34,330 bases of DNA from a virus: IMG/VR virus record IMGVR_UViG_3300044987_000826, positions 1 to 34,330 of that record; one strand, given 5' to 3'. Below the pieces are notes generated by a model. It had not been told where the DNA came from and made no database searches. It worked only from the letters and a program-made list of their open reading frames with translations. A program made the translations under genes and the position numbers. Below, in pieces: positions 748 to 34,330 of this stretch (its first letter is position 1; every line of letters starts with the position of its first letter).

Positions 748-781
748 CAAAAAAGCCCTTAGCCCCGAAGGACTAAAGGCT
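748..781 (-). terminator. Strong leftward intrinsic terminator ahead of the packaging operon
   Basis: Read leftward, AGCCTTTAGTCC pairs with GGGCTAAGGGCT through 12 consecutive pairs (two of them G-U) around a UUCG loop closed by C-G, followed by a run of six T. Rightward, the two G-U pairs become C-A mismatches, so the signal is directional. It ends leftward transcripts from the glycan cluster, or attenuates a transcript starting near 833, just before the ATG at 746. Confidence 0.85.
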
Positions 782-837
782 CGTTGATTTTTTACCCTTT
801 ATTCACCCCCTAATATACTAAATATTTACCACTAAAA

Positions 838-845
838 CAAATATA
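838..845 (-). promoter_or_regulatory. Bacteroidota-type -7 box TATATTTG upstream of the packaging operon
   Basis: The minus strand reads TATATTTG, an exact match to the Bacteroidota -7 consensus TAnnTTTG. No clear TTTG lies about 20 bases upstream, so this is a partial promoter. The start site would be near 833, giving a leader of about 85 bases that runs into the terminator at 748-781. Confidence 0.45.
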
Positions 846-875: not shown

Positions 876-1313
876 TCAAGGATTACTTGACAGTTGCCAG
901 TTTGATAATATCCGAACTAGCTCTAACATTATACCCTGACCACCGGGAGTTTGTAAGGGATGCACCCCATCTAGGCATTTAACCTCTAGAGAGGCATCAG
1001 CTGGGCAAAATAAGTGTTTTGCCTTAGTTAGCATAGGTATATCCCATGCGGAGTCTCCTATGGCTATTTGGTAGTCAAAAGGGATGGTCTCTTTGTTTCG
1101 TATTATATGTAACTCAGCCCCAGACCTTCTGAGGTATTGTTCTGCACCGGGCCAAGAGGAAGCAGTTACTAAGTGGACCTGATACCCCATGGAAATAAGC
1201 TCTTTTATGGCTCCTATGTCCTTGTTATTAAAGGACTTAATTATATTCCCTTGATGGTCCACCCAGATTTTGCCATCTGTTAGGCAACCATCGATATCAC
1301 AGCAGATTACCAT
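876..1313 (-). CDS. KdsC-like HAD phosphatase
   Basis: A 145-residue cap-less HAD-superfamily phosphatase. Motif I is CDIDGCLTDG (nucleophile D6, D8), motif II is LVTAS near residue 50, the motif III lysine is probably K74, and motif IV is GDSAWD at 86-91. The DxDGxLTDG form is typical of KdsC-type sugar-phosphate phosphatases (8-phospho-KDO and relatives). I chose the ATG at 1313, two bases after the upstream stop, over an earlier in-frame start at 1343 that would overlap the methyltransferase. It is the last gene of the leftward glycan cluster, which suits removing phosphate from a sugar precursor. The exact substrate cannot be read; a nucleotide or polynucleotide phosphatase is possible. 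The stop codon lies inside a 7-bp inverted repeat (TGTCAAG/CTTGACA) with no T-run. Confidence 0.75.
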   Translation of the reverse strand: MVICCDIDGCLTDGKIWVDHQGNIIKSFNNKDIGAIKELISMGYQVHLVTASSWPGAEQYLRRSGAELHIIRNKETIPFDYQIAIGDSAWDIPMLTKAKHLFCPADASLEVKCLDGVHPLQTPGGQGIMLELVRILSNWQLSSNP

Positions 1314-1315
1314 GT

Positions 1316-1936
1316 TTATTTTTTTATTATCCAATAATACCAATCCCGGCCTAATAAATTGACTGTTGCAAACTTATGTGGAGGCCATGCAATAATGGTT
1401 TTTGACTTCTTGCCTAAAATTACCATGCAGCCATGATCATCTAATGAAATATCCCATTGATGAAAGCCTTGCCAGTTCTCATGTGTTGCCTCGTTAAAAA
1501 ACCCTTGCACTATTAGATAGCCTCCCGGTCTTACAGCTTGCAATAGACATTCTAAGGCCTTTCTAGGCTCTTGGGTATGGTCTAGGGCATTTGATATGTG
1601 AACTATGTCAAATTCGTTTTTATATGTCAGTTCCTCAGCTGGGTAAGGTAGTGGGGCTACTAGTTTGTGCCTCTCAAAGTCAAAGACTAGCTTGTAAAGG
1701 TCTCCCAAAGGGTCGCATGGGGTTACATTTACTAATCCATTTAGTATTGAGCAGACTCCTGAGCCTACATCTAATACTTTCTGATTAGGCACAGATAAAA
1801 TAAAGTCTGCCACTTCTTGGTTCAGCTCGGGTGTTTTTACTTTCTTTACCCAACCTTGTAAAAAGCGGTCTGTCTTTACAAATTGCTGCCAGAAAGCTAA
1901 CTCATGATAAATTCCATGTAATTCTAGTGTTGTCAT
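1316..1936 (-). CDS. SAM-dependent methyltransferase (class I)
   Basis: A 206-residue protein with a Rossmann-type methyltransferase core: motif I VLDVGSG at 54-60, an acidic post-I segment (CDPLGD), FDIVHISNALDHTQEP as motif IV, and LLQAVRPGGYLIVQGFF as the motif following the fifth strand. This matches the Methyltransf_11-type small-molecule or sugar methyltransferases rather than DNA methyltransferases, since no target-recognition region or DPPY/SPPY motif is present. Its ATG overlaps the preceding small gene by ATGA. Lying among glycosyltransferases, it may O-methylate a glycan. Confidence 0.75.
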   Translation of the reverse strand: MTTLELHGIYHELAFWQQFVKTDRFLQGWVKKVKTPELNQEVADFILSVPNQKVLDVGSGVCSILNGLVNVTPCDPLGDLYKLVFDFERHKLVAPLPYPAEELTYKNEFDIVHISNALDHTQEPRKALECLLQAVRPGGYLIVQGFFNEATHENWQGFHQWDISLDDHGCMVILGKKSKTIIAWPPHKFATVNLLGRDWYYWIIKK

Positions 1937-2157
1937 TTGTTATAGGTTTCGTTGTAGTATTGTTCTGCTTGGTCATTTGTCCACTGTGTATGGTCGTGCT
2001 TATCAAAAACTCGTTGCCCTTCTATGTGAGCATCTATTATCTGCTCCTTCTCAAGTTCTTTGGCTTTATCAATATGTCCAAGGTTTTCAAGTAACATATA
2101 TTCATCCCATTTACAAATGTGTTTCATTCTTTGTACCAACCATTCTACTGCTGTCAT
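1933..2157 (-). CDS. Small protein of an AVEWL...AEQYYNETY family (copy 1)
   Basis: A 74-residue protein starting MTAVEWLVQRM and ending AEQYYNETYNK, with a central AKELEKEQII helix. It is paralogous to 2413-2616. The start at 2157 follows the upstream stop directly; an earlier in-frame start at 2211 would run into the upstream gene. Its stop overlaps the methyltransferase ATG as ATGA. The family recurs in Bacteroidota phages as hypothetical proteins; no function is known to me. Confidence 0.7.
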   Translation of the reverse strand: MTAVEWLVQRMKHICKWDEYMLLENLGHIDKAKELEKEQIIDAHIEGQRVFDKHDHTQWTNDQAEQYYNETYNK

Positions 2158-2158
2158 A

Positions 2159-2410
2159 TTATTTGTTTTTAATGTTAAGGGAATATTTAATTGTAACAAA
2201 TGAGCCATCAATGGTAAATTCGGTTATTCCATTAGTGCTTACAAAAGTTATATTGTCATCTATATCTCTAATTTCAAGACCTTTTAATTTTGTGTCTTTT
2301 TGCCAATAATATTTATCCAAACAATGATAAACATCATTTGCTGTGTTGTAGCTAACTTCAATAACTTTAGTAAATCCATTTTCTTTGTTTGTTAAAGTAA
2401 TCTTTGCCAT
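2159..2410 (-). CDS. Hypothetical protein, 83 aa
   Basis: Starts MAKITLTNKENGFTKVIEV and is predicted mostly beta-stranded with no motif I recognise. Its composition is markedly A/T-rich (the 60-base line at 2281 has 14 G/C by hand count). It sits between two paralogous small genes with 1-2 base spacings, so it is part of the operon. Confidence 0.55.
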   Translation of the reverse strand: MAKITLTNKENGFTKVIEVSYNTANDVYHCLDKYYWQKDTKLKGLEIRDIDDNITFVSTNGITEFTIDGSFVTIKYSLNIKNK

Positions 2411-2412
2411 AT

Positions 2413-2616
2413 CTATTTGTTTTTATAGGTTTCGTTGTAATATTGTTCTGCTTCAATATCATCATTTATATTTTTCCCAAAATATAATGCTTTCAATATT
2501 TGCTCTTTCTCCATTGCTTTGGCTTGTTGTACTGCATTATATGTTGTTGCATCGTAAGTAAACATTGCTTTTGGTATTAGTTGTTCAACTAACCATTCTA
2601 CTGCTGTTTGTTTCAT
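2413..2616 (-). CDS. Small protein of an AVEWL...AEQYYNETY family (copy 2)
   Basis: A 67-residue paralogue of 1933-2157: QTAVEWLVEQL at the start, AKAMEKEQILKAL in the middle and AEQYYNETYKNK at the end. The helical design with a conserved tail suggests a small intracellular protein, perhaps a protein-binding one, but no activity can be assigned. The surrounding DNA is A/T-rich compared with the flanking glycosyltransferase genes. Confidence 0.65.
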   Translation of the reverse strand: MKQTAVEWLVEQLIPKAMFTYDATTYNAVQQAKAMEKEQILKALYFGKNINDDIEAEQYYNETYKNK

Positions 2617-2623
2617 AGTTTGT

Positions 2624-3238
2624 TTATTTAGGCCATAAATCTTGTTGCCAGTTTTTACCCCATTTTTGAATCATGTGCCTTTGACTAATGGGGGTCCAGT
2701 AGTTTCTAAGTTGCTTTCTTAGCTGACCGATAGGATGCTCTTTTTTGTTTCTTAGATAGGTATGCCCGATGACTTGGCTATGATGCACCCCGACTTTTCT
2801 GGGTTTGACTCGATGACACCAGTCAAGGTCCATGTAGTAGTAAGGCAGCATCTCATCTAAAGGGTTTAAGTTATAGACCTCTGCATTGACCATTGGAGCA
2901 GTCCATTCGATAAAAGGGGTCTCTTTGGGTTCGTGTCCGTTAGGCCACTGGAATCTGTGATCCGAGTTTGGCATAGCTGGATGGATGCCAGCCCAGCCTA
3001 ATGTCTCGCAAGCCATTGCTAACTCATAAGGCATCTGAGGCTTAAAAGTTACATTTGAGACAAACCAATAGTAATCTGCCTCTTTGTTTTTGGTTATGAT
3101 AGTATTGTAAGCCCTAGACATATTGCCTACTCCATCTCTACTGACTATCTCGTAAGGTAAGCCAGTCTCTTGTATGCATTTTAGAGTGTCTAACCACTCT
3201 GGCTCTAAGTATTCTAGAGCTACAATTACAATTCTCAT
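2624..3238 (-). CDS. GT2-like (GT-A fold) glycosyltransferase
   Basis: A 204-residue protein opening with a short beta strand (MRIVIVALEYLEPEWLDTL), followed by the GT2-like features GVGNMSRAYNTII, ADYYWFVSNVTFKP (position of the nucleotide-sugar and metal-binding D-x-D region, but the acidic pair is not clear) and YYMDLDWCHRVK near the C-terminal third, which resembles the acceptor/base motif of family 2 enzymes. It overlaps the downstream end of the 3235-3675 methyltransferase by 4 bases, so expression is coupled. The likely role is transferring one sugar onto a surface or virion glycan; donor and acceptor are unknown. The degenerate DxD leaves open an inactive or divergent enzyme. Confidence 0.65.
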   Translation of the reverse strand: MRIVIVALEYLEPEWLDTLKCIQETGLPYEIVSRDGVGNMSRAYNTIITKNKEADYYWFVSNVTFKPQMPYELAMACETLGWAGIHPAMPNSDHRFQWPNGHEPKETPFIEWTAPMVNAEVYNLNPLDEMLPYYYMDLDWCHRVKPRKVGVHHSQVIGHTYLRNKKEHPIGQLRKQLRNYWTPISQRHMIQKWGKNWQQDLWPK

Positions 3239-3675
3239 TTTATTGGTGTTAGGTGGACAATTAAGTTACCATCTTTAGTTTCTATGTGTAGGATAGCCCA
3301 GTATTTGTCTGTGTAGCCGAACTTAGGAGCCTCAGAGATGGTGAAGTAATTTATAAAAGTATGCTTTCGGTAACATCTTATGTGTGTAGGATCGGCAAAC
3401 TGCAAGTCTGAATTTGCTCCTGCTTCTGGAGTTTCTATGTATAAAGCACCACCCTTTTTTAGTATGCGATGGCTTTCATTCATAAAATCTAGTAAGCTAT
3501 TAAGATGCTCTACTACATGAATAGCTACTATCTCATTCATTGAGTTGTCCTTAAATGGCCAAGGTGTGATGTTTAGGTCATGTACTACATCTACGTTGTC
3601 AAACTTGCGACAATCTAAGAAAATGTCATTCTCTCTTTTAGGCCAGTTAGGACCGCATCCAACTATAAGCTGCAT
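3235..3675 (-). CDS. SAM-dependent methyltransferase (compact)
   Basis: A 146-residue compact class I methyltransferase. The N-terminal glycine loop is short (MQLIVGCGPNWP), followed by IFLDCRKF, VVHDLNITPWPFKDNSMNEI, HVVEHL, and a late HRILKKGGALYIETPE element. The order is typical of Methyltransf_11 enzymes that act on sugars or nucleotide-sugars. It overlaps the GT4 gene by 13 bases upstream and the GT2-like gene by 4 downstream. The short length suggests a minimal catalytic core. Confidence 0.7.
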   Translation of the reverse strand: MQLIVGCGPNWPKRENDIFLDCRKFDNVDVVHDLNITPWPFKDNSMNEIVAIHVVEHLNSLLDFMNESHRILKKGGALYIETPEAGANSDLQFADPTHIRCYRKHTFINYFTISEAPKFGYTDKYWAILHIETKDGNLIVHLTPIK

Positions 3676-4634
3676 AAGATTTGATTAATTTTATCCATCC
3701 AATAATCCCAAGTATAGGTCTCTGTGTGCTTGCGTATGTTATCGCTTTTCTCTTTTAGGTCATTAGGGTTATTTATAGCAAACATTGTCGCATCAAACAA
3801 CTTGTCATAAGAGTAGCCAGTTTTATAACTATTAGTCTCGTTTAAGTCATCGTCTCCCTCAATAATACCTCTTATTGTTACTGTACCTTTTGTGCCAGCT
3901 TCTAAGGGTGCAGTTGACCTAGCATCGTATTTTGTGGCTTTAATCATTATTGTAGCTTCCTCATATAGCCTATTCATTGTATCTAGGCTAGGCTTAACTA
4001 CATATTCTGTGTAGATATTGTCTTTAGCTTGGTGCAAACCAAAACCTTTTATTGTCCATCCTTTCTCTCTTAGGTTTTTGGCCACTTGCACTGCTATCTT
4101 TTCTGTGTCTTTAGCCATGTTAGTAGGCTCTGGCGATTCTAGTAAAGCTATCTTGCCCTCTTTCGTTTTATGGCTTATGGGAAAGTCATTAAGATTAACT
4201 CCGTTACCCACATAGTTTATTGGTCCTTTTCTTTTATAGGTATTTTGTAGCATCCTAATATTCCACTGGCTTATAGATATTAAAGGATACTTAGTAGTGT
4301 ATAAAGTAAAGCAGCTATCAAAGAATGACTTGTTAGTTAAGTTAAATAGATGCTCTAGCATTTGCAAAAAAACTATTTTCTTGACTGGCTTGTCTTTTGC
4401 TAATAAGTTTGCTCCATGCGGGCTCGTTACAATCAATAGGTCTGAGGTAGCTAGTAAAGAGGTTGTATTTACAATCTTGCAAGTAATGGTCATCCAGTCG
4501 CATCTCACTGGACCGGCTTGGTTGTATAGTATAACCTTATGCCCATAAGCACCTAATCTATTTGCCCATTCGTTTATAACTCTTATACCTCCATGCCTAG
4601 AGTTTATGTTTGGGCTTTGTATAAAGATTCTCAT
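3663..4634 (-). CDS. GT4-like (GT-B fold) glycosyltransferase
   Basis: A 323-residue protein with the two-domain layout of family 4 glycosyltransferases. The N-terminal half begins MRIFIQSPNINSRHGGIRV, the glycine pair being typical of the acceptor-side loop, and includes VTSPHGANLL. A linker region carries ISQWNIRML and VGNGVNLNDFP (the usual N-G-V-D/N turn). The C-terminal donor half has YEEATIMIKATKYDARSTAPLEAGTKGT, where the P-L-E-A-G element matches the donor-binding E-x7-E region in part. It is co-transcribed with the Stealth-like gene upstream (overlap of 4 bases). Substrate unknown. Confidence 0.75.
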   Translation of the reverse strand: MRIFIQSPNINSRHGGIRVINEWANRLGAYGHKVILYNQAGPVRCDWMTITCKIVNTTSLLATSDLLIVTSPHGANLLAKDKPVKKIVFLQMLEHLFNLTNKSFFDSCFTLYTTKYPLISISQWNIRMLQNTYKRKGPINYVGNGVNLNDFPISHKTKEGKIALLESPEPTNMAKDTEKIAVQVAKNLREKGWTIKGFGLHQAKDNIYTEYVVKPSLDTMNRLYEEATIMIKATKYDARSTAPLEAGTKGTVTIRGIIEGDDDLNETNSYKTGYSYDKLFDATMFAINNPNDLKEKSDNIRKHTETYTWDYWMDKINQILCSL

Positions 4635-5320
4635 TTTTCGTAGATTGACTTATCTGGATATAGTTTGTGCATTAAGACCTTAAAATCGTTATTGACTGTA
4701 TAAGCTCCAATAGAGAAAAAAGTCTTACCTACTAACTTACCTTGCCATGTGCTTAGATTGTACTGATTGCTTAGCTTAAAGTCTGCCATGTACTCAAAGC
4801 CACCTTCCATGTTTCTAGTGTAGGCTGATTTTATGACATACTCTTGTTTCCAGTCTAAGTCTAATAGCTTACCAAACTCTTTAGCATTGTAAACTATCGG
4901 AACGTGAATGTCTGTGTAAAGATCATTGCATCCCGGTAGCTTGGCTGTATTTGTGATGGCTCTTTTATACAATCCAGTAGCCTTTTCAGCCCATTGACTG
5001 CATAAACCATCATACCAATAGCGGAACTGATCTACCCTAAGGTCTTTAATTAGGAAATGGTCATCATTCCAAAAGATAAAGTCTTCGGTATTGGTCATCT
5101 CACAGCCAGTAAGTATTTTTTGAAAGATGCTAAAGTTCTTGCGGCCCGGCACATCTGGGATGTCATAGTGATCGACATTCTTTATCCATTTAGGCCTTTC
5201 GCCTATTAGTAAGATGCGACCAGTATGGCCTTTGAGATGCTTCTCAATCGACCGTAGGGCATACCTCAGCTCGTTGTCCATCCACCGGCTGCCAGTTCCC
5301 AAAGCTATCACGATATCCAT
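4631..5320 (-). CDS. Stealth-like sugar-phosphate transferase
   Basis: A 229-residue protein resembling the Stealth family of hexose-1-phosphate transferases that build phosphate-linked capsules. DNELRYALRSIEKHL with LLIGERPKWI (residues 15-46) matches conserved region 1; FIFWNDDHFLIKDL (NDD at 85-87) matches the catalytic region 2; and YTDIHVPIVYNAKEF matches region 3. The first 14 residues are needed to complete region 1, so I keep the ATG at 5320 although it lies 77 bases inside the preceding gene. A phage enzyme of this type could alter the host surface polysaccharide or decorate the virion. The family call is good; the chemistry is inferred. Confidence 0.7.
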   Translation of the reverse strand: MDIVIALGTGSRWMDNELRYALRSIEKHLKGHTGRILLIGERPKWIKNVDHYDIPDVPGRKNFSIFQKILTGCEMTNTEDFIFWNDDHFLIKDLRVDQFRYWYDGLCSQWAEKATGLYKRAITNTAKLPGCNDLYTDIHVPIVYNAKEFGKLLDLDWKQEYVIKSAYTRNMEGGFEYMADFKLSNQYNLSTWQGKLVGKTFFSIGAYTVNNDFKVLMHKLYPDKSIYEK

Positions 5321-5474
5321 CGAATTTGCTTAAAATGTGAATTTTTACAGCATTTGTAAGACTACCGAACTCTTTGACAATCAAATCATTCTGCTCTTTA
5401 GTGATATAGACAGACACCATCTGCACTTTAAGATGTGCAGGCTTGGGCTTTCTACCTCTTTTCTGCTTTTCCAT
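5244..5474 (-). CDS. Ribbon-helix-helix-like small regulator
   Basis: A 76-residue protein: a basic N-terminal tail (KRGRKPKP, AT-hook-like), then VQMVSVYITKEQNDLIVKEFGSLTNAVKIHILSKF, which fits a ribbon-helix-helix strand followed by two helices. I use the ATG at 5474 rather than 5492 because the former starts immediately after the -7-like box. Its last 77 bases overlap the Stealth-like gene in another frame. Being first in the leftward cluster and beside a divergent promoter, it may be a DNA-binding regulator of that operon. Confidence 0.55.
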   Translation of the reverse strand: MEKQKRGRKPKPAHLKVQMVSVYITKEQNDLIVKEFGSLTNAVKIHILSKFDGYRDSFGNWQPVDGQRAEVCPTVD

Positions 5475-5478
5475 ACCA

Positions 5479-5486
5479 CAAATATA
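5479..5486 (-). promoter_or_regulatory. TATATTTG -7 box for the leftward glycan cluster
   Basis: The minus strand has an exact TATATTTG whose last base is four bases from the ATG at 5474. With the usual spacing the transcript would begin at or next to that ATG, so the mRNA would be almost leaderless. No TTTG lies about 20 bases upstream, which is mostly A/T. Confidence 0.4.
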
Positions 5487-5513
5487 GGGCAATAAAAATA
5501 AATTAAAAATATT

Positions 5514-5544
5514 TTTGGTTAATGTGTAAAAGTGTATTATCTTG
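5514..5544 (+). promoter_or_regulatory. Candidate rightward promoter for the early genes
   Basis: TTTG at 5514-5517, 20 bases, then TATCTTG at 5538-5544, close to the Bacteroidota -33/-7 pattern with one departure from TAnnTTTG. The first rightward start codon is at 5569, about 20 bases after the expected start site. Confidence 0.45.
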
Positions 5545-5568
5545 CATCCATAACCAAATGATTAAACC

Positions 5569-5652
5569 ATGAAAGCACCAATCAAACTCCTACTTGCTCT
5601 ACTAGCAGTTGCCTATGTTATAGGCCTTTTACAAGACAACATTTGCCAATAA
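5569..5652 (+). CDS. 27-residue single-pass membrane protein
   Basis: Reads MKAPIKLLLALLAVAYVIGL then LQDNICQ and stop: two lysines, then about 15 hydrophobic residues, then a short polar end with one cysteine. This fits a tiny inner-membrane protein or an uncleaved signal anchor. It is first in the rightward transcript and lies 15 bases ahead of the next gene. Early phage membrane peptides are often involved in host takeover or exclusion of other phages, but that is only a suggestion. Confidence 0.5.
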   Translation: MKAPIKLLLALLAVAYVIGLLQDNICQ

Positions 5653-5667
5653 TCAAAACCCTTTACC

Positions 5668-5952
5668 ATGACAATTACCCTAATCACATCAAAAACCAGA
5701 GCCATCCACATCTTTGAATCTGGACAAGGCTATTACCAAGCAGAACTATTTGAACCAACAGAGAAAATGTATTCAGACCAAACTGGAGTGCGTTTAACTT
5801 TCCCCGATTGGATGGATGCAGAGGCTATTGCTTTACTCATGTTTCATACTGGAGTAAGCTATGGCCTTACAGATGGCATCAGACTTTACAACCCTAGCTA
5901 TACACCTACTAAAAAAAAGATTGACGATGTTATGGGCCTCGCCCATGATTAA
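5668..5952 (+). CDS. Hypothetical early protein, 94 aa
   Basis: Begins MTITLITSKTRAIHIFES and contains FPDWMDAEAIALLMFHTGVSYGLTDG. No signal peptide or recognised domain is seen. It is followed by the terminator at 5971-6001, so it may form a short early transcript with the micro membrane protein. Confidence 0.6.
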   Translation: MTITLITSKTRAIHIFESGQGYYQAELFEPTEKMYSDQTGVRLTFPDWMDAEAIALLMFHTGVSYGLTDGIRLYNPSYTPTKKKIDDVMGLAHD

Positions 5953-5970
5953 TGGCAAGCAATAGGTTAA

Positions 5971-6001
5971 CCCCGATGTTTCTACATTGGGGGCATTTTT
6001 T
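5971..6001 (+). terminator. Rightward intrinsic terminator
   Basis: CCCCGATGT pairs with ACATTGGGG over 9 bases (one G-U), loop TTCT, then six T at 5996-6001. It divides the first two early genes from the main replication block, which would need read-through or its own promoter. Confidence 0.8.
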
Positions 6002-6022
6002 AACTACCCTTAAATTCACCAC

Positions 6023-6304
6023 ATGAAAACCACTTACCCCACACACCCAATGCGTGATTTTAACGAATGGATCACAGCAGTACACAATTATTTTAGAATG
6101 ACAGCAGCAGAGTATGTCCGTAACAAGTACATTAGACAGTTTACTCCTTTTCGTATCGAACCAGATGGCCAAGCCTACTACATTGTAGATGATGAGAAAA
6201 TACCAGCTAAGGAGTTTGAACGCAAGTTCCCCCTCCCATTATTTGTAAATAAAAATGATGAGAATCCTAACTCAATGGGAGCAATGTTTGCAGAAACAGT
6301 TTAA
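6023..6304 (+). CDS. Hypothetical early protein, 93 aa
   Basis: Begins MKTTYPTHPMRDFNEWI and is soluble, with an aromatic-rich mixed fold; PDGQAYYIVDDEKIPAKEFERKFPLPLF is its most distinctive stretch (only the beginning and end shown here as markers). It lies directly after the terminator and 19 bases before the recombination-type gene. Function unknown. Confidence 0.6.
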   Translation: MKTTYPTHPMRDFNEWITAVHNYFRMTAAEYVRNKYIRQFTPFRIEPDGQAYYIVDDEKIPAKEFERKFPLPLFVNKNDENPNSMGAMFAETV

Positions 6305-6323
6305 CTTTATAAAAAACCACATC

Positions 6324-7007
6324 ATGTCAAACGATTTAATTACCTATGATTTAGCTAAGCCAGCACAATCGCTGCAACTAGCCTCCGAACTAAAAAGATT
6401 TGTAAAAGAGCAAAAACTTACTGTCAACATTAAGGGCAAAGAGTATCCTTTAGTCGAGTCTTGGCAGTGGGCAGGAGCCCAGTTAGGCTTGTATCCCCAG
6501 CTTAATTACATCTCTAATCACTCTACCGAAACCGAGATTAAATACTTGGCAGAGGTTAGTATTTGCAAATGGGGCACTAATGAGGTCATCTCTAAAGGAG
6601 TGGCTATTTGCTCTAACAAAGAGGGCAATAAGAGGCAATGGGATGAGTATGCTATCCTATCGATGGCTCAGACTAGGGCTACCGGCAAGGCCTTTAGGAA
6701 CTTAATTTCTTGGCTTATGAAGGCTGCTGGTTTTGAGGCTACACCTGCCGAGGAGATGGACTTTAACAAGATAGTCGAGGACACCCCCACCAATGATGAG
6801 AAGTTTATCTTACTTAATTTGATAGGGCATACTGATTTGAGTGATGATGAGGCTGTCTTGGCTCAAGAGGCTATCACTAACTGCCCAGACTACAAGACCT
6901 ACCAAAAGCTCCAGCACCGTTTAGAGGCTCGTAGAAAGCCGATTGACCAGATAGTCAACCCCTCACAAAAAGATATAAATAAACACCTTAAAAAGACAGT
7001 AAAATGA
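6324..7007 (+). CDS. Putative recombination protein (conserved phage type)
   Basis: A 227-residue protein. The core contains SWQWAGAQLGLYPQL, a beta segment, then AILSMAQTRATGKAFRNL and MKAAGFEATPAEEMD. The helix with repeated basic residues after Q-T-R-A resembles the helix of Rad52/ERF-like single-strand annealing proteins, and proteins with this S-M-A-Q-T-R-A pattern occur next to SSB-like genes in phages. The ATG at 6324 is preferred to an upstream in-frame one at 6255 because that would extend into the previous gene. Its end overlaps the next ATG as ATGA. Family assignment is tentative; it could be another nucleic-acid-binding protein. Confidence 0.45.
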   Translation: MSNDLITYDLAKPAQSLQLASELKRFVKEQKLTVNIKGKEYPLVESWQWAGAQLGLYPQLNYISNHSTETEIKYLAEVSICKWGTNEVISKGVAICSNKEGNKRQWDEYAILSMAQTRATGKAFRNLISWLMKAAGFEATPAEEMDFNKIVEDTPTNDEKFILLNLIGHTDLSDDEAVLAQEAITNCPDYKTYQKLQHRLEARRKPIDQIVNPSQKDINKHLKKTVK

Positions 7008-7474
7008 GAATAGTTACCACAACCGATTTAAGCCTATTTGAGACTACCAAAGCCGAAAGGCAGGACTTTGCTCAAAGTGTCATAAATAGCCTAAAAGAGG
7101 GGCTTATAGACCCCTTAAAGGTGCATCTGCAAGTAAAATGCTTAGAGGACATCGTAAAGCAGCTAACTACCCATCCAGAATACAAAGATTTAACCCTAGA
7201 GGAAGCCAATAAGCATGGCAAGTCTTTTGAGTTACACAATGCTAAATTTGAGATTAAAGAAGCTGGGGTTAAGTACGACTACTCTAATTGTGGCGATCCG
7301 GTTTATAATGCTCTGGCTGAAAAGTTAGCAGAATTAGAAAAAGAGATTAAAGAACGCCAAGCCTTTCTAAAGGCTGTAAAGCCCGGCACAGAAATTTTGG
7401 TAGAGGATGAGGTCGTTATCCTTTACCCCCCAGTTAAGACATCCACAACATCTATAACCGTAAATCTAAAGTAA
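7004..7474 (+). CDS. Conserved hypothetical with C-terminal coiled coil
   Basis: A 156-residue protein with a helical N-terminal half, VKYDYSNCGDPVYNAL in the middle, then a charged helix (ALAEKLAELEKEIKERQAFL) and a beta tail EVVILYPPVKTSTTSITV. I recognise this arrangement as a common Bacteroidota-phage gene beside recombination genes. No enzymatic motif is visible. It is coupled to 6324-7007 by an ATGA overlap and is one base from the SSB-like gene, so a role in the same recombination step is reasonable. Confidence 0.6.
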   Translation: MRIVTTTDLSLFETTKAERQDFAQSVINSLKEGLIDPLKVHLQVKCLEDIVKQLTTHPEYKDLTLEEANKHGKSFELHNAKFEIKEAGVKYDYSNCGDPVYNALAEKLAELEKEIKERQAFLKAVKPGTEILVEDEVVILYPPVKTSTTSITVNLK

Positions 7475-7475
7475 A

Positions 7476-7775
7476 ATGAGCTACAAAATGGCAGCCGCAA
7501 TCAGTCAAAAGCAACTTGACAAAAAGTTTCCACAAGGGATTAGGGTATTCGCACCAAGAGAAAATGCCCCCTCGTTTGTAAAAGGTCAAATCATCATCAC
7601 CCCCAATGACTTATTCCAATGGCTTAAAGACAATCCAGACCTCTTAACGGATTATCAAGGTAACAAGCAGCTAAAGATTAGCATCTTGGAACGCAAAGAT
7701 GGTGGCGGTTGGAATACCGTAGTTGACACTTACAAACCCCAAAGCAATGGACCAGATAAGGACCTCCCTTTCTAA
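7476..7775 (+). CDS. SSB-like protein with DLPF tail
   Basis: A 99-residue protein with a beta-rich core (GQIIITPNDLFQWL, LKISILERKDGGGWNTVVDTY), then a proline/serine linker and the C-terminus GPDKDLPF. The last residues copy the acidic tip (DDDIPF in E. coli SSB) through which single-strand DNA binding proteins recruit partners. The core is shorter than an ordinary OB-fold SSB and I do not see the complete family pattern, so it may be a functional analogue. Its neighbours (recombination-type gene, NinG) fit an ssDNA-binding role. Confidence 0.55.
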   Translation: MSYKMAAAISQKQLDKKFPQGIRVFAPRENAPSFVKGQIIITPNDLFQWLKDNPDLLTDYQGNKQLKISILERKDGGGWNTVVDTYKPQSNGPDKDLPF

Positions 7776-7776
7776 A

Positions 7777-8112
7777 ATGCAGGCCTACTTAGAGACCCCT
7801 ATTGGACATGAACCAAATCAGCTTTTAGAACGGATTGAGTATCTACTAATAATGGTTGCTAAGTCAGGTCAGCTACTTGCAGAGGCTAAGTTAGCCCAAG
7901 ACCAGATAATTAACCAAGGATTGCTGCAAGCTATGGAGCAAGGATTGGACAAAAAACTAAGCCCATCCCTTATCACTAAGTTTGTAAATACGAATGCCAA
8001 AGAGGTTAACTATTTAGTCAACTGGGCTGACAGGGTCAATGCATCTGCCACCCATCAATTAGATGCCATCAGAACCATTGTATCGTATCGTAAAGCCGAA
8101 ATGAATCTATGA
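7777..8112 (+). CDS. Hypothetical helical protein, 111 aa
   Basis: Starts MQAYLETPIGHEPNQLLERI and continues as a long all-helical protein. The ATG at 7777 lies one base past the upstream stop; in-frame starts at 7723 and 7747 would overlap the SSB-like gene. Its end overlaps the NinG ATG (ATGA). No function is recognisable. Confidence 0.6.
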   Translation: MQAYLETPIGHEPNQLLERIEYLLIMVAKSGQLLAEAKLAQDQIINQGLLQAMEQGLDKKLSPSLITKFVNTNAKEVNYLVNWADRVNASATHQLDAIRTIVSYRKAEMNL

Positions 8113-8528
8113 GAAAGGTTACCTTACCACGACTGACAGAGAAAGCCCAAAAGGTCTTTAATGCTTATATCAGGCAAAGAGATTCTAAAGACGGATATTT
8201 CACCTGTATCAGTTGCTTTAAGACTTTGCCAGTAGAATCCATGAATGCCGGACACTATGTACCAGTCAAGGGCGGATCATTTCTTAGGTTTCATGAGGAC
8301 AATGTCAACGGAGAATGTCAACGATGCAACGGCTTTGATGAGTTTCACCTTATCGGTTATCGCAAGCACCTACTCTTAAAGATTGGCAAGAAAAGGGTAG
8401 AGTGGCTAGAAAATAACCGAAACAAGGTCCACAAATGGAATCGGGCAGACCTAGAGGATATCATTACTCTTTACACCACACTACTAAAAACCGCAAAAGA
8501 TGGAACTAGTAACCACCTACCGTTTTAA
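8109..8528 (+). CDS. ninG: NinG/Rap-like recombination protein
   Basis: A 139-residue protein with the NinG layout: FTCISC (first cysteine pair), then NAGHYVPVKGGSFLRFHEDN, then VNGECQRCNGFDEFHLIGY (second cysteine pair). NinG (Rap) of lambda is a structure-specific endonuclease that cleaves recombination branch points. The four cysteines probably hold a zinc ion and the AGHYVP...RF.EDN core resembles an HNH-type active site. Its place next to SSB-like and annealing-like genes supports a role in recombination. Confidence 0.85.
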   Translation: MRKVTLPRLTEKAQKVFNAYIRQRDSKDGYFTCISCFKTLPVESMNAGHYVPVKGGSFLRFHEDNVNGECQRCNGFDEFHLIGYRKHLLLKIGKKRVEWLENNRNKVHKWNRADLEDIITLYTTLLKTAKDGTSNHLPF

Positions 8529-8754
8529 GTGGAACGGACAATACATAGGGATATTAAGTAAAAATAACCCAACCATCCGGACCACTTTATTTCCCCAGCA
8601 TGCAATCCACCACACAGAAGATGAGCTTGCTTGGGTATGCGAGAAACTATCGAGACATGGTTTTGATTACACTTACGAAAAACTTACCCATTTTTATTCA
8701 CCCATAAAAAACCACAGACATGACACAAACAGAAAGAATCTTGATTTATCTTAA
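8500..8754 (+). CDS. Hypothetical protein, 84 aa
   Basis: Begins MELVTTYRFKWNGQYIGILS. It overlaps the end of NinG by 29 bases and the start of the HTH gene by 35. The middle part (HAIHHTEDELAWVCEKLSRHGFDYTYEKL) looks like a real small globular protein. The overlaps at both ends lower confidence in its exact limits. Confidence 0.5.
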   Translation: MELVTTYRFKWNGQYIGILSKNNPTIRTTLFPQHAIHHTEDELAWVCEKLSRHGFDYTYEKLTHFYSPIKNHRHDTNRKNLDLS

Positions 8755-15193: not shown

Positions 15194-18100
15194 TTATAAG
15201 CAGTTAAGACCAGAGCCAAAGTCGGCTATAATTCTCCAGTTTGAGCCATCACTTTGTATCATAACACCATACTGGCATTGTAAAGTGTAAGTAGCAAAAC
15301 CATCGATTGTTTGTGCTCCATTAGGATCGATTGTTAAAGCATCTGTATTAGTGGTATTATTAACTTTAATAACATAAATTCTACCAGTACAAGTAGATGC
15401 ACTTGGTAGGTTTGCTGTTGCAGCAGCACTTATATTAAAAACTACTGTATAATCAGTAGAATCTAAAGTATAGGTCGCTGTTTTGCTTACATATTTAGCT
15501 GCTATTGAGCCGTTTGAGTGTAGAGTTGATGTAGGAGCATTTGTAGCTATACCAACCAATCCACCACTTGTTATTCTCATTCGCTCAATATCGGTAGTAA
15601 CTAACAGCAATGGTGTCGATGTGGCACTACCTACAACAATAGTACTATTTGCACCATCCGAATATATATGTCCCCTATTTGCATCTGTGCTATTTCTAAC
15701 AACTAAAGCACCAGTATTATTTGCTGCTGTTGATGCAATTGTTACAGTAGTGTTACCATAGTTATTTGGAGAAGTTGTACCAAAACCAACATTTCCGCTA
15801 ACTAACAACCCGTTCGTTGGTGCTGCAGTACTTGCACTATATCCTATGGCTGCATTGCCATTTACTTGTAGGCGAGAACCGATAGTGGTTGTGCCTATGC
15901 CAAGATTTCCCGAAGCATTTAAGGTCATAGCCTGTGTAAAGGTTATGGCATTACCTGCTGTTCCTGAAGGGGCATTGTACCAAGCGTGTGAGCCAGCTCC
16001 TTGTGTGTAAAATGTTGCTGCACCATTTACTCCATATATCCAATTACCTGATGAGTTTACATAAGCATTTGCTTGAGAACGCATAGATGTTCCATCTGAA
16101 GAAAGACCAGTAGCACCTAAAATTTCAAAAGATTTATTTGTTGATATCCACGCACTTGGTGTTACTCCTAAGCCAAGATTTCCCGATGCGTCTAATTTCA
16201 TTCTGTCTGTAAAGGTAGCTGTATTTCCTGCTGTACCTGATGGCGCAGACCTCCAAATGTGCTCTCCATTTAATTGATAATAATCTGATGCAAAATTTGT
16301 TGTTTGATAAATATTTGATGTACCATTAAAAAAGAAATTATGGCCAAATCCTGCAACTGCACTAGAACCTCTAACACTAGCTTGTAAACCTTGTATAACT
16401 GAAAATCCACTCCATGCACTAGGTATAACACCTACACCAACATTTCCCGCAACCGCCAATCCATTTGTAGGAGCAGCAGTAGAGGCTGAGTAGCCGATAG
16501 CTGCGTTGCCGTTGACTTGTAATTTACTACCAATAGTGGTTGTACCTATGCCTAAATTTGCAGTAGCTCCACCACTTGTTAACCGCATTGCTTCTGCATT
16601 ACTTGTATGAAATCTCAAAGGTATAGCAGCTAAAGTTCCTACTGTTCCACCATTATCATCCCCATATAAAAATGATTTACCAGTAGCAGCACCAACAATC
16701 ACAGAAGCACCAAGAGCGTTAAAAATATCCAAATTTGTAGTTGGGTTAGCAATTCCAATTCCAACAAATCCATTGCTTTTAATTGTCATAGCCACACTTG
16801 AGCTGCTATCTGCTATTGAGCCATTGCCAATAGTTCCCGAAGCTGTGAACTTGGCTAGTCTGTTTATAGTACCAGAGCCACCTATTGATCCACCACCAGC
16901 AGCAGCCCTTACAGCAGCAGCGGTATCAGCTAGTATCTTGCCAGTTACATAACCTAGTAAGTTTGTAGCAGTCAAGCTATCCTTTCTCCTTAAAAAGTAA
17001 GATGCTAGGGTAGCAGAGTCAGCACTTACCACTTGGCTAACCTTAGACAAGCCATAACCTACGTTATTAACGTAATTGCCTAGCATTGTCGAAGTGTCAG
17101 AGATGTTTAACTTAGTGTTAATTCTATTGCTCAAAGAGGCTGTATCTACCTTACGCAGATAAGGGTTTAACATATTAGCAGTGTCGCTAATGTTTACCTT
17201 TAAGTTAATACGATTGCTTAAAGATGCAGTGTCTATCTTCCTTAAATAAGGGTTCAGCATTGAGGCTGTATCCGAGATGTTTACTTTCAAAGCCAGACCA
17301 GCAGTCAGGTTATTTTGTACTGAATCGATACCCTTTTGTCTCCAAGCTCTAGTAGAGATAACTACGGTATCTATTGCTAGAGTACCTGCACCAGTAATGG
17401 TTCCCCCAGTTATACCAGTACCATTGTTAGTTGCTACTGATGTAACCGTACCACCACTAGAAGGAGAACTATTAGTAATTGTAAAACTAGGATAAGTACC
17501 GCCTATTGTTATGCCAGTACCAGCAGTCAAAGCAACGGTTTGATCTGGGGCAGTATTAGTAACCGTAATATTACCCGAACCAGTTACAGGGCTATTAGCG
17601 ACAGAGATACCAGTTCCAGCGGTGATTCCGACTGAGGTTACTGTACCTACCGAAAATGTCCTATTAGCGGATAGGTCTTGACTTGTACCATTGATAGTAA
17701 TTGTGCGTGTCTGGGGAACATACGTTGCAGCAGCCACATTTGACCTTAAGTAAGGAGAAAGCATAGAAGCTGTGTCTGAGATATTAACTTTTAAGGCTAG
17801 CCCAGATGTCAAATTGCTCTGTACTGAATCAATACCTTTTTGCCTCCACCTTCTAGTAGATATTGTAATTGTATCAATAGCTAAAGTACCAGAGGTTGTA
17901 ATAGGCCCTCCAGTTAATCCTGTGCCAGTATTTGAACCAACAGAGGTAACTGTGCCAGTACCAGAGGCGGCCCTTACAGCAGCAGTAGAATCAGCCAAAA
18001 TCTTACGAGTAACATAGCCTAGTAAATTGGTAGAGGTAAGACTGTCCTTCCTCCTTAGAAAATAAGATGCCAAAGTAGCCGAATCTGCACTAACGACCTT

Positions 18101-19327
18101 GCCAACTTTAGATAACCCATACCCTACATTGTTGACATAATTATTCAACATCGTAGCAGTATCCGAAATGTTAAGTTTTAGGTTGATTCTATTTGATAAG
18201 CTAGCAGTATCTACTTTTCGTAAATAAGGACTAAGCATAGATGCAGTATCGGATATATTTAGCTTATTGTTAAACGTAGTCCAATCAGCACTTGATAAAG
18301 CACCCCTATTAGTAGCCGAGGCAGTAGGTAAATTAAAAGTATGAGTAGCAGTAACAGAGTTTATGTTAAAGTCGGTACCAGCGGTTCCTGTAACTAAATA
18401 CTGAGCCGGAGCAGTTAACCCATTTAAGGCTCCAATACCAGTAGTGAAGGTTGTATGAATCTCACCTACATAGCCATTCTGCGTATAAAGGGTTACCGTT
18501 TTACCATTCGTATTTGTGATATAAAATTGCACTACAATCCTGTCTGTTACAGCCAAAGGAGTTGTAGGGATACTTACAGACCAAGTATAAAGATTCGGTG
18601 TACTACCCTCAGTAATTTCCTCAATAGGGGAAGTAGCAATAGTAGTAATAGTTGAACCATCCCACTTTTCTACCTCAATCCAAATTTGAGCACTATTTGA
18701 ACCACCACCAGATTCACTTAACCAAGCATCAATAGTCCAAACCCCAGCAGGGATTTGTAATAGCCCAGGCTTACCGGGATCAGTGATAAAGTTAGCCAAT
18801 CCACCAGTAGTGTTTCTTGTAAAGTTAGCAGCAGCACCAGTATTAGCAGTATCTCCTAATTCATACATCTGTAAGCCGCCAAAAGTTCCCATGTTAACGC
18901 CACCATTAAAGTAGTAGATTTTACCACCACCGCCACCTCCGGCATTGCCAGTGCTATCATTGAAAGCCCAAGTATGGATTCCACCTTTAACATAAAACAC
19001 AGAGTCAGAGCCACTTTTCTTATAGACCTGAGTAATATATTTATTAGTAGTGTCAGATGGGTTAAGTGAACCTCTTAGCTTAATCCACTGCGTACCAGTA
19101 TAGGTATAAACAGTAGAATCGGTCGTGTTATAAAACAACGCACCAGCATTGGTAGAACCGCCAACCCTAAGACTATTGGTCGTACCTTTAGGAATGTGAA
19201 ACGTAGAATCAAACATTCCTGCTATCCAACGGTATCTACCATTGATATTAGTATAGTTTGATGGGGCTTGCCCAAAAGCTACCTGACTAACAATTAAGAG
19301 TAAAACGAGCTTAAATATTCGTATCAT
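15194..19327 (-). CDS. Large repetitive tail-fibre-like protein with signal peptide
   Basis: A 1377-residue protein. The first 20 residues (MIRIFKLVLLLIVSQVAFGQ) form a signal peptide. Next come a beta-sandwich region (about 20-330), then repeated KLNISDTASML and NNVGYGLSKV elements, Gly/Thr-rich GTVTSVG repeats, and a C-terminal part with GNLGIGTTTIGSRLQVNG repeats and a short ending rich in beta structure. Repeated GxG and GIGT patterns resemble phage receptor-binding fibres. Its position after the tail genes supports that. The signal peptide is odd for a virion protein; it could be displayed on the host instead. No peptidase S74 type chaperone motif is clearly seen. Confidence 0.65.
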   Translation of the reverse strand: MIRIFKLVLLLIVSQVAFGQAPSNYTNINGRYRWIAGMFDSTFHIPKGTTNSLRVGGSTNAGALFYNTTDSTVYTYTGTQWIKLRGSLNPSDTTNKYITQVYKKSGSDSVFYVKGGIHTWAFNDSTGNAGGGGGGKIYYFNGGVNMGTFGGLQMYELGDTANTGAAANFTRNTTGGLANFITDPGKPGLLQIPAGVWTIDAWLSESGGGSNSAQIWIEVEKWDGSTITTIATSPIEEITEGSTPNLYTWSVSIPTTPLAVTDRIVVQFYITNTNGKTVTLYTQNGYVGEIHTTFTTGIGALNGLTAPAQYLVTGTAGTDFNINSVTATHTFNLPTASATNRGALSSADWTTFNNKLNISDTASMLSPYLRKVDTASLSNRINLKLNISDTATMLNNYVNNVGYGLSKVGKVVSADSATLASYFLRRKDSLTSTNLLGYVTRKILADSTAAVRAASGTGTVTSVGSNTGTGLTGGPITTSGTLAIDTITISTRRWRQKGIDSVQSNLTSGLALKVNISDTASMLSPYLRSNVAAATYVPQTRTITINGTSQDLSANRTFSVGTVTSVGITAGTGISVANSPVTGSGNITVTNTAPDQTVALTAGTGITIGGTYPSFTITNSSPSSGGTVTSVATNNGTGITGGTITGAGTLAIDTVVISTRAWRQKGIDSVQNNLTAGLALKVNISDTASMLNPYLRKIDTASLSNRINLKVNISDTANMLNPYLRKVDTASLSNRINTKLNISDTSTMLGNYVNNVGYGLSKVSQVVSADSATLASYFLRRKDSLTATNLLGYVTGKILADTAAAVRAAAGGGSIGGSGTINRLAKFTASGTIGNGSIADSSSSVAMTIKSNGFVGIGIANPTTNLDIFNALGASVIVGAATGKSFLYGDDNGGTVGTLAAIPLRFHTSNAEAMRLTSGGATANLGIGTTTIGSKLQVNGNAAIGYSASTAAPTNGLAVAGNVGVGVIPSAWSGFSVIQGLQASVRGSSAVAGFGHNFFFNGTSNIYQTTNFASDYYQLNGEHIWRSAPSGTAGNTATFTDRMKLDASGNLGLGVTPSAWISTNKSFEILGATGLSSDGTSMRSQANAYVNSSGNWIYGVNGAATFYTQGAGSHAWYNAPSGTAGNAITFTQAMTLNASGNLGIGTTTIGSRLQVNGNAAIGYSASTAAPTNGLLVSGNVGFGTTSPNNYGNTTVTIASTAANNTGALVVRNSTDANRGHIYSDGANSTIVVGSATSTPLLLVTTDIERMRITSGGLVGIATNAPTSTLHSNGSIAAKYVSKTATYTLDSTDYTVVFNISAAATANLPSASTCTGRIYVIKVNNTTNTDALTIDPNGAQTIDGFATYTLQCQYGVMIQSDGSNWRIIADFGSGLNCL
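16900..17290 (-). repeat. Internal duplication in the fibre, copy A
   Basis: Encodes KLNISDTSTMLGNYVNNVGY, then GLSKVSQVVSADSATLASYF and LRRKDSLTATNLLGYVTGKI. It is closely related to the section at 17965-18270. Amino acids agree well while many codons differ, pointing to an old duplication kept by selection on the protein. Confidence 0.75.
17965..18270 (-). repeat. Internal duplication in the fibre, copy B
   Basis: Encodes KLNISDTATMLNNYVNNVGY, then GLSKVGKVVSADSATLASYF and LRRKDSLTSTNLLGYVTRKI. It matches copy A with few amino-acid changes. A WRQKGIDSVQ...NISDTASML...PYLR segment also recurs between and beside the two copies. Confidence 0.75.
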
Positions 19328-33528: not shown

Positions 33529-33862
33529 TGGCTGGCTTGAATACTATGTTAATGCCTCCATCAACCTTAATATCTTGCTCGCCTTTTTCTTTCTGACCGA
33601 GTCTTTGCTTACCTAACCAGATAAGCATTGCTCTGTCTTTATCTTTAATAGCTGCATCGAATTGGACCTTTCTTAAAAGGCTTTCTCCTGATGCCTGCTT
33701 TTCTTGCTTAAATGCCACAAAATCTATACCTAAATCCGACTTACATCGTTGATACAGAGTGTTTTCGTGGATGCCTAACTGAGCTGCAACCTCTACCCCA
33801 GAGCAACCTGCCATGAGGTATTCGCCTACAAAATCCCAGTCTATTGTGGTGAGTGATGACAT
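33515..33862 (-). CDS. terS: Terminase small subunit, complete copy
   Basis: A 115-residue protein with an HTH (AGCSGVEVAAQLGIHENTL) and a C-terminal helical and beta tail ending KPANETS. It recognises the packaging site and activates TerL, with which it overlaps by 14 bases. The other end copy at 1-328 lacks only its end, so this is the complete gene. Its ATG overlaps the small basic gene upstream as TAATG. Confidence 0.85.
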   Translation of the reverse strand: MSSLTTIDWDFVGEYLMAGCSGVEVAAQLGIHENTLYQRCKSDLGIDFVAFKQEKQASGESLLRKVQFDAAIKDKDRAMLIWLGKQRLGQKEKGEQDIKVDGGINIVFKPANETS

Positions 33863-34002
33863 TACTTCTTTTGCTTGGCTCTTTTAGGTAGTTTTTTACC
33901 TTTAGAGGCCTTATTCCATTCCTCTACATTAACTCCTTGCTTTTCGAGCTTTTTCTTGTTAATGTTAAAGAAGGCTGCTTGGGCTCTGCTTTTGTAGGGC
34001 AT
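33862..34002 (-). CDS. Small basic protein upstream of terS (second copy)
   Basis: 46 residues, differing from 328-468 at one visible residue near the end (RAKQKK here, RAKKKK there) despite several silent base changes. Silent changes with an almost constant protein suggest that the sequence is under selection. It is linked to its neighbours by TAATG on both sides. Confidence 0.7.
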   Translation of the reverse strand: MPYKSRAQAAFFNINKKKLEKQGVNVEEWNKASKGKKLPKRAKQKK

Positions 34003-34040
34003 TACTTTCTCTTTTTTCTTTTCTTACAACCGCAAGCCAT
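34002..34040 (-). CDS. 12-residue micro-ORF MACGCKKRKKRK
   Basis: ATG at 34040 to TAA at 34002. Its ATG overlaps the upstream stop and its TAA overlaps the next ATG, both as TAATG. The peptide has a CGC pair followed by a basic run. The left end copy lacks exactly the 38 bases that would hold it and joins the flanking genes directly. It is either a translated micro-peptide or a neutral insertion. Confidence 0.35.
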   Translation of the reverse strand: MACGCKKRKKRK

Positions 34041-34318
34041 TACTTTCCTATTTTACCGCATTTCCAGAGGACCTTTCTGCTCCAGTAGTTGGCACTTAGT
34101 TTGGTATCTGTACCTTTTATGCCACCTGATCTCTCGCAATAAGACTTCCTTCTGGTCTTTGATTTGTGCTGGGTAAAGTCTTTCATAGAGCTGTCTCCGA
34201 AGTGGATTATCTTCTCTACCCCATTCTCACATGCCTTAACCACTTTCTTTTTGCCTGACAACCAACTTTTCATTGGCTTATTACAAGGCATCTCGGATTT
34301 AGGTACTCTCTTTATCAT
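34040..34318 (-). CDS. Lysine-rich conserved phage protein (second copy)
   Basis: 92 residues; differs from 468-746 at a few positions (WLSGKKKVVKACENGVEK here, WLKGKKKVVKACEGGKEK there; SYCERSGG here, SYCLRSGG there). It has the same NKP and YW...W features. It is the first gene of the packaging operon in this copy and starts just past the terminator. Confidence 0.75.
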   Translation of the reverse strand: MIKRVPKSEMPCNKPMKSWLSGKKKVVKACENGVEKIIHFGDSSMKDFTQHKSKTRRKSYCERSGGIKGTDTKLSANYWSRKVLWKCGKIGK

Positions 34319-34330
34319 ACAAAAAAGCCC

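Follow-up and report, generated by a model that had tools for sequence, protein, structure and literature searches.

A glycan cassette next to the particle-building genes of a small freshwater virus

Introduction

Phage-borne glycan cassettes and glycosylated virions are both established kinds of system. In mycobacteriophages, for instance, phage enzymes glycosylate proteins of the capsid and tail tube, as stated in papers that cite the original work (PMC12619734, PMC12363180). A small freshwater virus, IMG/VR record IMGVR_UViG_3300044987_000826, carries a glycan cassette next to its particle-building genes. The window analysed here is the whole virus record, 34,330 bases, and the cassette occupies positions 876-5474 of its minus strand, with genes that abut or overlap one another (Table 1).

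An earlier note on this DNA had proposed a single leftward operon, started by a likely regulator, that encodes a Stealth-like transferase, a GT4 and a GT2-like glycosyltransferase, two S-adenosylmethionine (SAM) methyltransferases and a KdsC-like phosphatase. Every gene named there is present at its coordinates. Profile and fold matches support the enzyme classes, and the operon is supported as well; all genes lie on the minus strand, and a ribbon-helix-helix (RHH)-like gene, recognised by a weak RHH_7 match, comes first. The cassette is real, but in place of the eight to ten genes estimated its core consists of seven, namely the RHH-like regulator and six enzymes (Stealth, GT4, the methyltransferase MT1, GT2, the methyltransferase MT2 and the HAD phosphatase), and three small open reading frames (ORFs) are missing from most relatives.

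Conservation of the cassette

Loci from relatives, numbered with the prefix L, were collected in scans with the Stealth protein (31 loci) and with the large terminase, TerL (80 loci), as queries. About 50 metagenomic relatives share the gene order, with the cassette upstream of the TerS-TerL-portal genes. The order regulator-Stealth-GT4-(MT1)-GT2-MT2-HAD-terminase is held by almost all loci covering this region, at TerL identities of ~77-100%, and the RHH-like regulator leads the cassette in these relatives too. Ratios of nonsynonymous to synonymous substitution (dN/dS), calculated for Stealth, GT4, MT1, GT2 and MT2 and leaving HAD aside, have medians of 0.06-0.09 in the five enzymes, the mark of purifying selection. 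Chance ORFs are ruled out by such ratios and by the gene order that dozens of relatives share.

Two loci depart from this order. On the stretch that it covers, L105 is without the regulator, Stealth, GT4 and GT2 genes. L106, whose terminase is 80% identical, has kept Stealth and swapped the remainder for an amidase, a TOD1/MUCI70-type glycosyltransferase and a methyltransferase-GT2 fusion, which is an exchange of glycan enzymes at one site. MT1 is missing in one clade (L028, L029, L083, L084, L103), and in L020 a DNA-methyltransferase-like gene (3602-4267) is inserted precisely at the boundary of MT2 and HAD, where it reuses the opening codons of the longer HAD frame. For the HAD gene of the window the most likely start is 1313 rather than 1343. 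Divergence of the cassette correlates moderately with that of the terminase, with some discordant pairs (L001 and L002 share 77% identity in TerL and 98% in Stealth), which suggests recombination.

The small variable ORFs (1933-2616 in the window; ~3200-5340 in L103 and L104) form a family of proteins ending in AEQYYNETYxxK that occur in tandem and are shared between phages. An 83-amino-acid member is 99% identical between L103 and L104, against ~66% for the neighbouring genes, suggesting recent transfer.

Table 1. Coordinates of the cassette genes and of the signals around them, in order along the minus strand
Feature	Coordinates	Strand	Evidence and remarks
Putative -7-type promoter element of the cassette, TATATTTG	5479..5486	-	4 nt before the regulator ATG
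RHH-like putative regulator, first gene	5244..5474	-	Pfam RHH_7 E 0.0039, below cut-off, weak; ATG at 5474; 77-nt overlap with the Stealth gene
Short Stealth-family transferase, 229 aa	4631..5320	-	PHROG 7999 1.3e-20; Pfam Stealth_CR2 1.9e-5, below cut-off; dN/dS 0.088
GT4-like (GT-B fold) glycosyltransferase, 323 aa	3663..4634	-	AlphaFold pLDDT 68; Foldseek MshA 9e-9; dN/dS 0.068
MT1, small SAM-dependent methyltransferase, 146 aa	3235..3675	-	Methyltransf_11 2.6e-8; PHROG 6636; dN/dS 0.066
GT2-like (GT-A fold) glycosyltransferase, 204 aa	2624..3238	-	AlphaFold pLDDT 64; Foldseek AvpGT 4.8e-5; dN/dS 0.065
Variable small ORF, non-core	2413..2616	-	Missing from most relatives; C-terminus common with 1933-2211
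Variable small ORF, non-core	2159..2410	-	Missing from most relatives
Variable small ORF, non-core	1933..2211	-	Missing from most relatives; 34-nt repeat common with 2413-2616
MT2, SAM-dependent methyltransferase, 206 aa	1316..1936	-	Methyltransf_23 3.1e-9; dN/dS 0.062
KdsC-like HAD phosphatase, 145 aa	876..1313	-	TIGR01670 4.5e-15, below its cut-off; PDB KdsC 1j8d 1.7e-13
Putative late promoter, TTTG-N20-TATATTAG	810..841	-	Upstream of the terminator; -7 element kept in ~40 distinct relatives
Intrinsic terminator ending the cassette, also in the late-operon leader	753..782	-	13-pair stem and T run

A short Stealth family

The first enzyme of the cassette matches GNPTAB (1.4e-15) and CpsY (1.3e-8) when a wide family profile is used, and a genome scan found 68 relatives. 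Full-length short members mostly have 220-260 amino acids and occur mostly in phages and prophages. They lack the spacers of classical Stealth proteins, with which the family aligns end to end (hhalign 99.2%, E 1.2e-19, 234 columns). Most members retain a start like conserved region 1 (CR1), the motifs ELRYSLRS and NDD, the HxP of CR3 and a C-terminal FPxKSxxE. None of the short members listed matches the CR4 tetrapeptide C[LI]ND; letters resembling FSIG or LSTxD stand in its place.

Mutagenesis of CpsY identifies the residues that matter, and the substitution R419K kills the enzyme (PMC10668966). NDD at positions 85-87 is invariant in the focal-lineage alignment, so that the metal- and pyrophosphate-binding residues N322 and D324 of CpsY are kept. 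The CR2 glutamate that contacts GlcNAc (E305 in CpsY) aligns with Q67 in the focal lineage and with Ala or Asn in actinophage members, by profile rather than structural alignment. For the CR3 arginine, R419, the nearest candidate is K164 in the focal lineage and an arginine in several other short members, in a part where the alignment is unreliable. With N322 and D324 kept, E305 replaced by Gln and R419 possibly by Lys, the protein is a homologue of Stealth, possibly with a different chemistry. A transfer of sugar-phosphate is predicted from this homology, as is the phosphate link of the glycan proposed earlier: NDD and the HxP of CR3 are kept, but the Gln, the possible Lys and the missing C[LI]ND depart from the classical enzymes.

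Elsewhere, too, short Stealth genes lie near virion genes. Gp6 of Fionnbharthvirus is three genes before the terminase, and gp22 of Streptomyces phage TurkishDelight adjoins the major tail protein, close to a GT4 protein. In L111 the gene stands immediately before a TerS-like gene, followed by TerL (5.6e-19) and portal (6e-92) matches, and in L213, L219 and L220 it is ~1-2 kb from TerL, as measured from locus coordinates. Glycosyltransferases are frequent company: two GT2 genes upstream (L217, L218) or downstream (L220), double-GT4 proteins (L237, L239) and another glycosyltransferase (L137). The cultured Mycobacterium phages Patt and Reptar3000 carry a short Stealth gene as well. Several records have neither a terminase nor a glycosyltransferase match. 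Placement of such enzyme genes next to or among virion genes is thus seen in the focal lineage and in several unrelated ones, and adjacency of Stealth to terminase, tail or lysis genes in unrelated phages stands as a recurring observation rather than a statistical result.

In L109, a Bacteroidales prophage-like locus, short Stealth follows a reverse transcriptase and a variable tail-like gene. This stretch (2244-8735) reads as a probable diversity-generating retroelement, with a variable-type protein, an Avd-like protein and a reverse transcriptase; a gene that may encode a glycosyltransferase comes next, together with short Stealth.

The other enzymes

Searches of Pfam, PHROGs and PDB gave no significant sequence match for the GT4-like and GT2-like proteins, and 50,697 phage records (INPHARED) gave none. 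AlphaFold models built from relatives reached moderate confidence (pLDDT 68 and 64). Foldseek groups the GT4-like model with GT-B enzymes of family 4 (MshA, BshA, PimA and PglA), at a pLDDT of only 68, with a degenerate E-x7-E-like motif and no Pfam match. The GT2-like model (pLDDT 64) has GT-A topology and resembles AvpGT, LH3, GtrB and TarS. A DLDW motif is invariant among its relatives, and DLD is a candidate metal-binding (DxD-type) motif. These placements and the invariant motif support both assignments at the fold level, so the two sequence-orphan enzymes are predicted members of GT4 and GT2.

The remaining enzymes are recognised more directly. The Pfam matches of both methyltransferases exceed the cut-off, and the MT2 motif LDVGSG is found in 71 of 72 relatives. 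In the HAD phosphatase the motifs DxDGxLTDG, S/T, K and GDxxxD are all kept in 37 of 37 relatives. Its score against TIGR01670 (55.9 bits) is about half the cut-off of 107, and no genes for Kdo or nonulosonate synthesis are found nearby.

Transcription of the cassette

The TATATTTG element stands 4-5 nt 5' of the regulator ATG in nearly all relatives, and a T-rich tract upstream of it is also conserved. At the other end, the terminator that separates HAD from the first late gene (782-753) covaries, with 99.4% of cells paired and four pairs changed on both sides, far above slid controls. With a promoter-like element of its own and a covarying terminator at its end, the cassette probably forms a transcription unit distinct from the late operon next to it. 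In the simplest reading, transcription of the late operon starts at a promoter upstream of this terminator and runs into it within the leader. Promoter activity of the TATATTTG and TATATTAG elements, like the timing of expression, is predicted from sequence; the strict pattern TTTG-N-TANNTTTG is not enriched in the window. A reading of the cassette as the first part of the late operon, co-transcribed with the virion genes, was considered and dropped, as the terminator and the late promoter element lie between them.

In about 40 distinct relatives the region equivalent to 753-841 (minus strand) has a Bacteroidota-like promoter, the covarying intrinsic terminator ~30-55 nt further on, and then the first late gene. 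The layout looks like that of lambda pR'-tR', a late promoter whose leader contains a terminator, and hints that antitermination controls the late genes. Four loci (L002, L097, L099 and L104) instead carry, after HAD, degenerate repeat arrays like ATTTCCACGGGGTA / AAAAATTCCACTGGC.

Genome and probable host

The ends of the window repeat each other imperfectly (1-300 and 33538-33837, 97%; 466-758 and 34038-34330, 89%), so the genome is a circle or a permuted unit of ~33.5 kb whose assembly overran its start. The end regions as a whole (1-758 and 33538-34330) are mutual copies at 85-97%, read as strain variants at both ends of a circular genome. In L001, with 100% identity in cassette and TerL, a single piece spans the window-end junction. 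The closest relatives of TerL belong to Bacteroides, Phocaeicola and Parabacteroides phages, at ~40% identity; this affinity and the Bacteroidota-like promoter elements make a Bacteroidota host likely.

A hydrophobic-segment check found no transmembrane segment among the cassette proteins, and searches of the phage genome found no integrase, thymidylate synthase or NTP_transf_3 nucleotidyltransferase. The enzymes therefore look soluble and probably draw on host nucleotide-sugars, and the phage is virulent-looking.

Two small, strongly basic proteins (328-746 and 33855-34318; net charge +13 and +19) head the late operon, and their presence varies among relatives. A tail-fibre-like protein of 1377 amino acids (15194-19327) contains an internal repeat (16890-17189 and 17955-18254, 71%) and has no Pfam or PHROG match.

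What the cassette may build

In the favoured reading, held tentatively at a likelihood just short of even, the cassette assembles in the cytoplasm of the host a short, O-methylated oligosaccharide that is attached to new virion proteins. The two glycosyltransferases, with their predicted folds, would transfer sugars from presumed host nucleotide-sugar donors to a presumed acceptor. Short Stealth, by its homology, may move sugar-1-phosphate, or sugar, from a metal-bound nucleotide-sugar. MT1 and MT2 would methyl-cap hydroxyls or acids of the sugars, and the HAD phosphatase would strip phosphate off a sugar-phosphate intermediate; the class of each is observed, the substrate presumed. The RHH protein may repress its own promoter, switching the cassette as one unit. 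A glycan coat so made could alter adsorption, persistence or recognition of the particle. We infer the sugars, linkage, acceptor, timing and benefit of this glycan from the enzymes and their setting. The earlier note had left open whether the glycan masks the receptor or decorates the virion; its reading as a glycan cassette fits, and the recurring nearness of virion genes, a genome that looks virulent and the lack of membrane genes tilt the acceptor towards the virion.

Several observations weigh against attachment to virions. Stealth enzymes of known function act in surface-polysaccharide synthesis or in Golgi glycoprotein modification. The cassette's own promoter element and the terminator before the late genes leave late co-expression unsupported. 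In two prophage-like loci (L113, L114) short Stealth lies between tail and lysis genes, beside the latter; in Microbacterium phage Cece it does not adjoin virion genes, and the L131 locus looks chromosomal.

The distinct promoter element also suits another explanation, a close rival though at a likelihood clearly below even, in which the target is the host surface: the capsule or O-antigen of the infected cell would be remodelled, and sibling or rival phages would fail to adsorb, or lysis debris would spare progeny. Stealth, glycosyltransferase, O-methyltransferase and HAD genes typify surface-polysaccharide loci, and cyanophage clusters with glycosyltransferases, HAD phosphatases and O-methyltransferases have been interpreted in this way (PMC7824862). 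However, the cassette encodes neither a membrane protein nor a lipid-carrier transferase, flippase or polymerase; with no integrase found, there is no long-lived lysogen needing protection; and the Stealth gene repeatedly adjoins virion genes in unrelated phages. Lysogenic serotype conversion by a Gtr cluster was rejected, as no hydrophobic segment, which the membrane flippase GtrA / GtrB would have, and no integrase were found.

A small soluble metabolite, such as a methylated sugar or phospho-sugar acting on the host or on competitors, is a quite unlikely product. A HAD phosphatase with methyltransferases does recall cyanophage secondary-metabolite clusters (PMC7824862), and the GT4 model resembles MshA and BshA, makers of small thiol glycosides. 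Two glycosyltransferases and a Stealth transferase nevertheless suggest an oligosaccharide, the cassette has no transporter, and Stealth neighbourhoods that vary in other enzymes often retain glycosyltransferases. Glycosylation of phage DNA against restriction was rejected as hardly credible: GT-B-fold phage glycosyltransferases do modify DNA, and one of the weaker Foldseek hits to the GT4 model is a DNA alpha-glucosyltransferase (1ya6), but no thymidylate-synthase-like hydroxymethylase was found, Pfam recognises no other base-hypermodification gene in the early region, and methyltransferases, Stealth and KdsC-like enzymes have no place in it.

Should the glycan coat the virion, glycosylation of particles, established in mycobacteriophages, would also reach environmental Bacteroidota-type phages, and short Stealth (PHROG 7999, at present 'unknown function') would offer an annotation handle for such modules in many phages. 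More speculatively, and doubtfully, short Stealth could be the common anchor of exchangeable virion-glycan modules positioned by the terminase or tail genes of numerous unrelated phages, giving interchangeable phosphate-linked, methylated 'coat types'. Should the glycan instead be placed on the host, the genes would form a compact receptor-changing cassette in an integrase-less phage. On either reading, several 'hypothetical' phage genes acquire a function that can be tested.

Comparison with known systems

In the open-access literature and collections searched, no described phage Stealth cassette was found, nor this gene set, the short Stealth member or the two sequence-orphan glycosyltransferases.

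The short Stealth protein shares with CpsY and GNPTAB the CR1-like start, CR2 with NDD, the HxP of CR3 and the C-terminal FPxKSxxE, and its profile matches solved structures of the family. It differs in its length of 229 amino acids, in lacking spacers and C[LI]ND, in the Gln that replaces the GlcNAc-contacting Glu and in the possible Lys at the CR3 Arg. The HAD protein has the complete motif set of KdsC/YrbI phosphatases, with KdsC 1j8d as its top solved-structure match, but reaches half the TIGR01670 cut-off score and has no adjoining Kdo or nonulosonate genes.

Among phages, the cyanophage 'LPS/capsule' clusters of P-SSM2 and S-SSM6a likewise contain glycosyltransferase, HAD phosphatase and O-methyltransferase genes (PMC7824862). 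Those clusters belong to large phages and include epimerases, sugar kinases and nucleotidyltransferases, none of which was recognised in the cassette, which adjoins the terminase. In Fionnbharthvirus mycobacteriophages a distant relative of the cassette Stealth gene is placed towards the terminase end of the genome. Virion glycosylation in the mycobacteriophages Che8, Corndog and Myrna also depends on phage-encoded glycosyltransferases, which act there on capsid and tail-tube proteins (Freeman et al. 2023, as cited in PMC12619734 and PMC12363180). The enzymes there are other ones; the cassette, whose glycan is predicted, combines several enzymes that include Stealth, two methyltransferases and a KdsC-like phosphatase.

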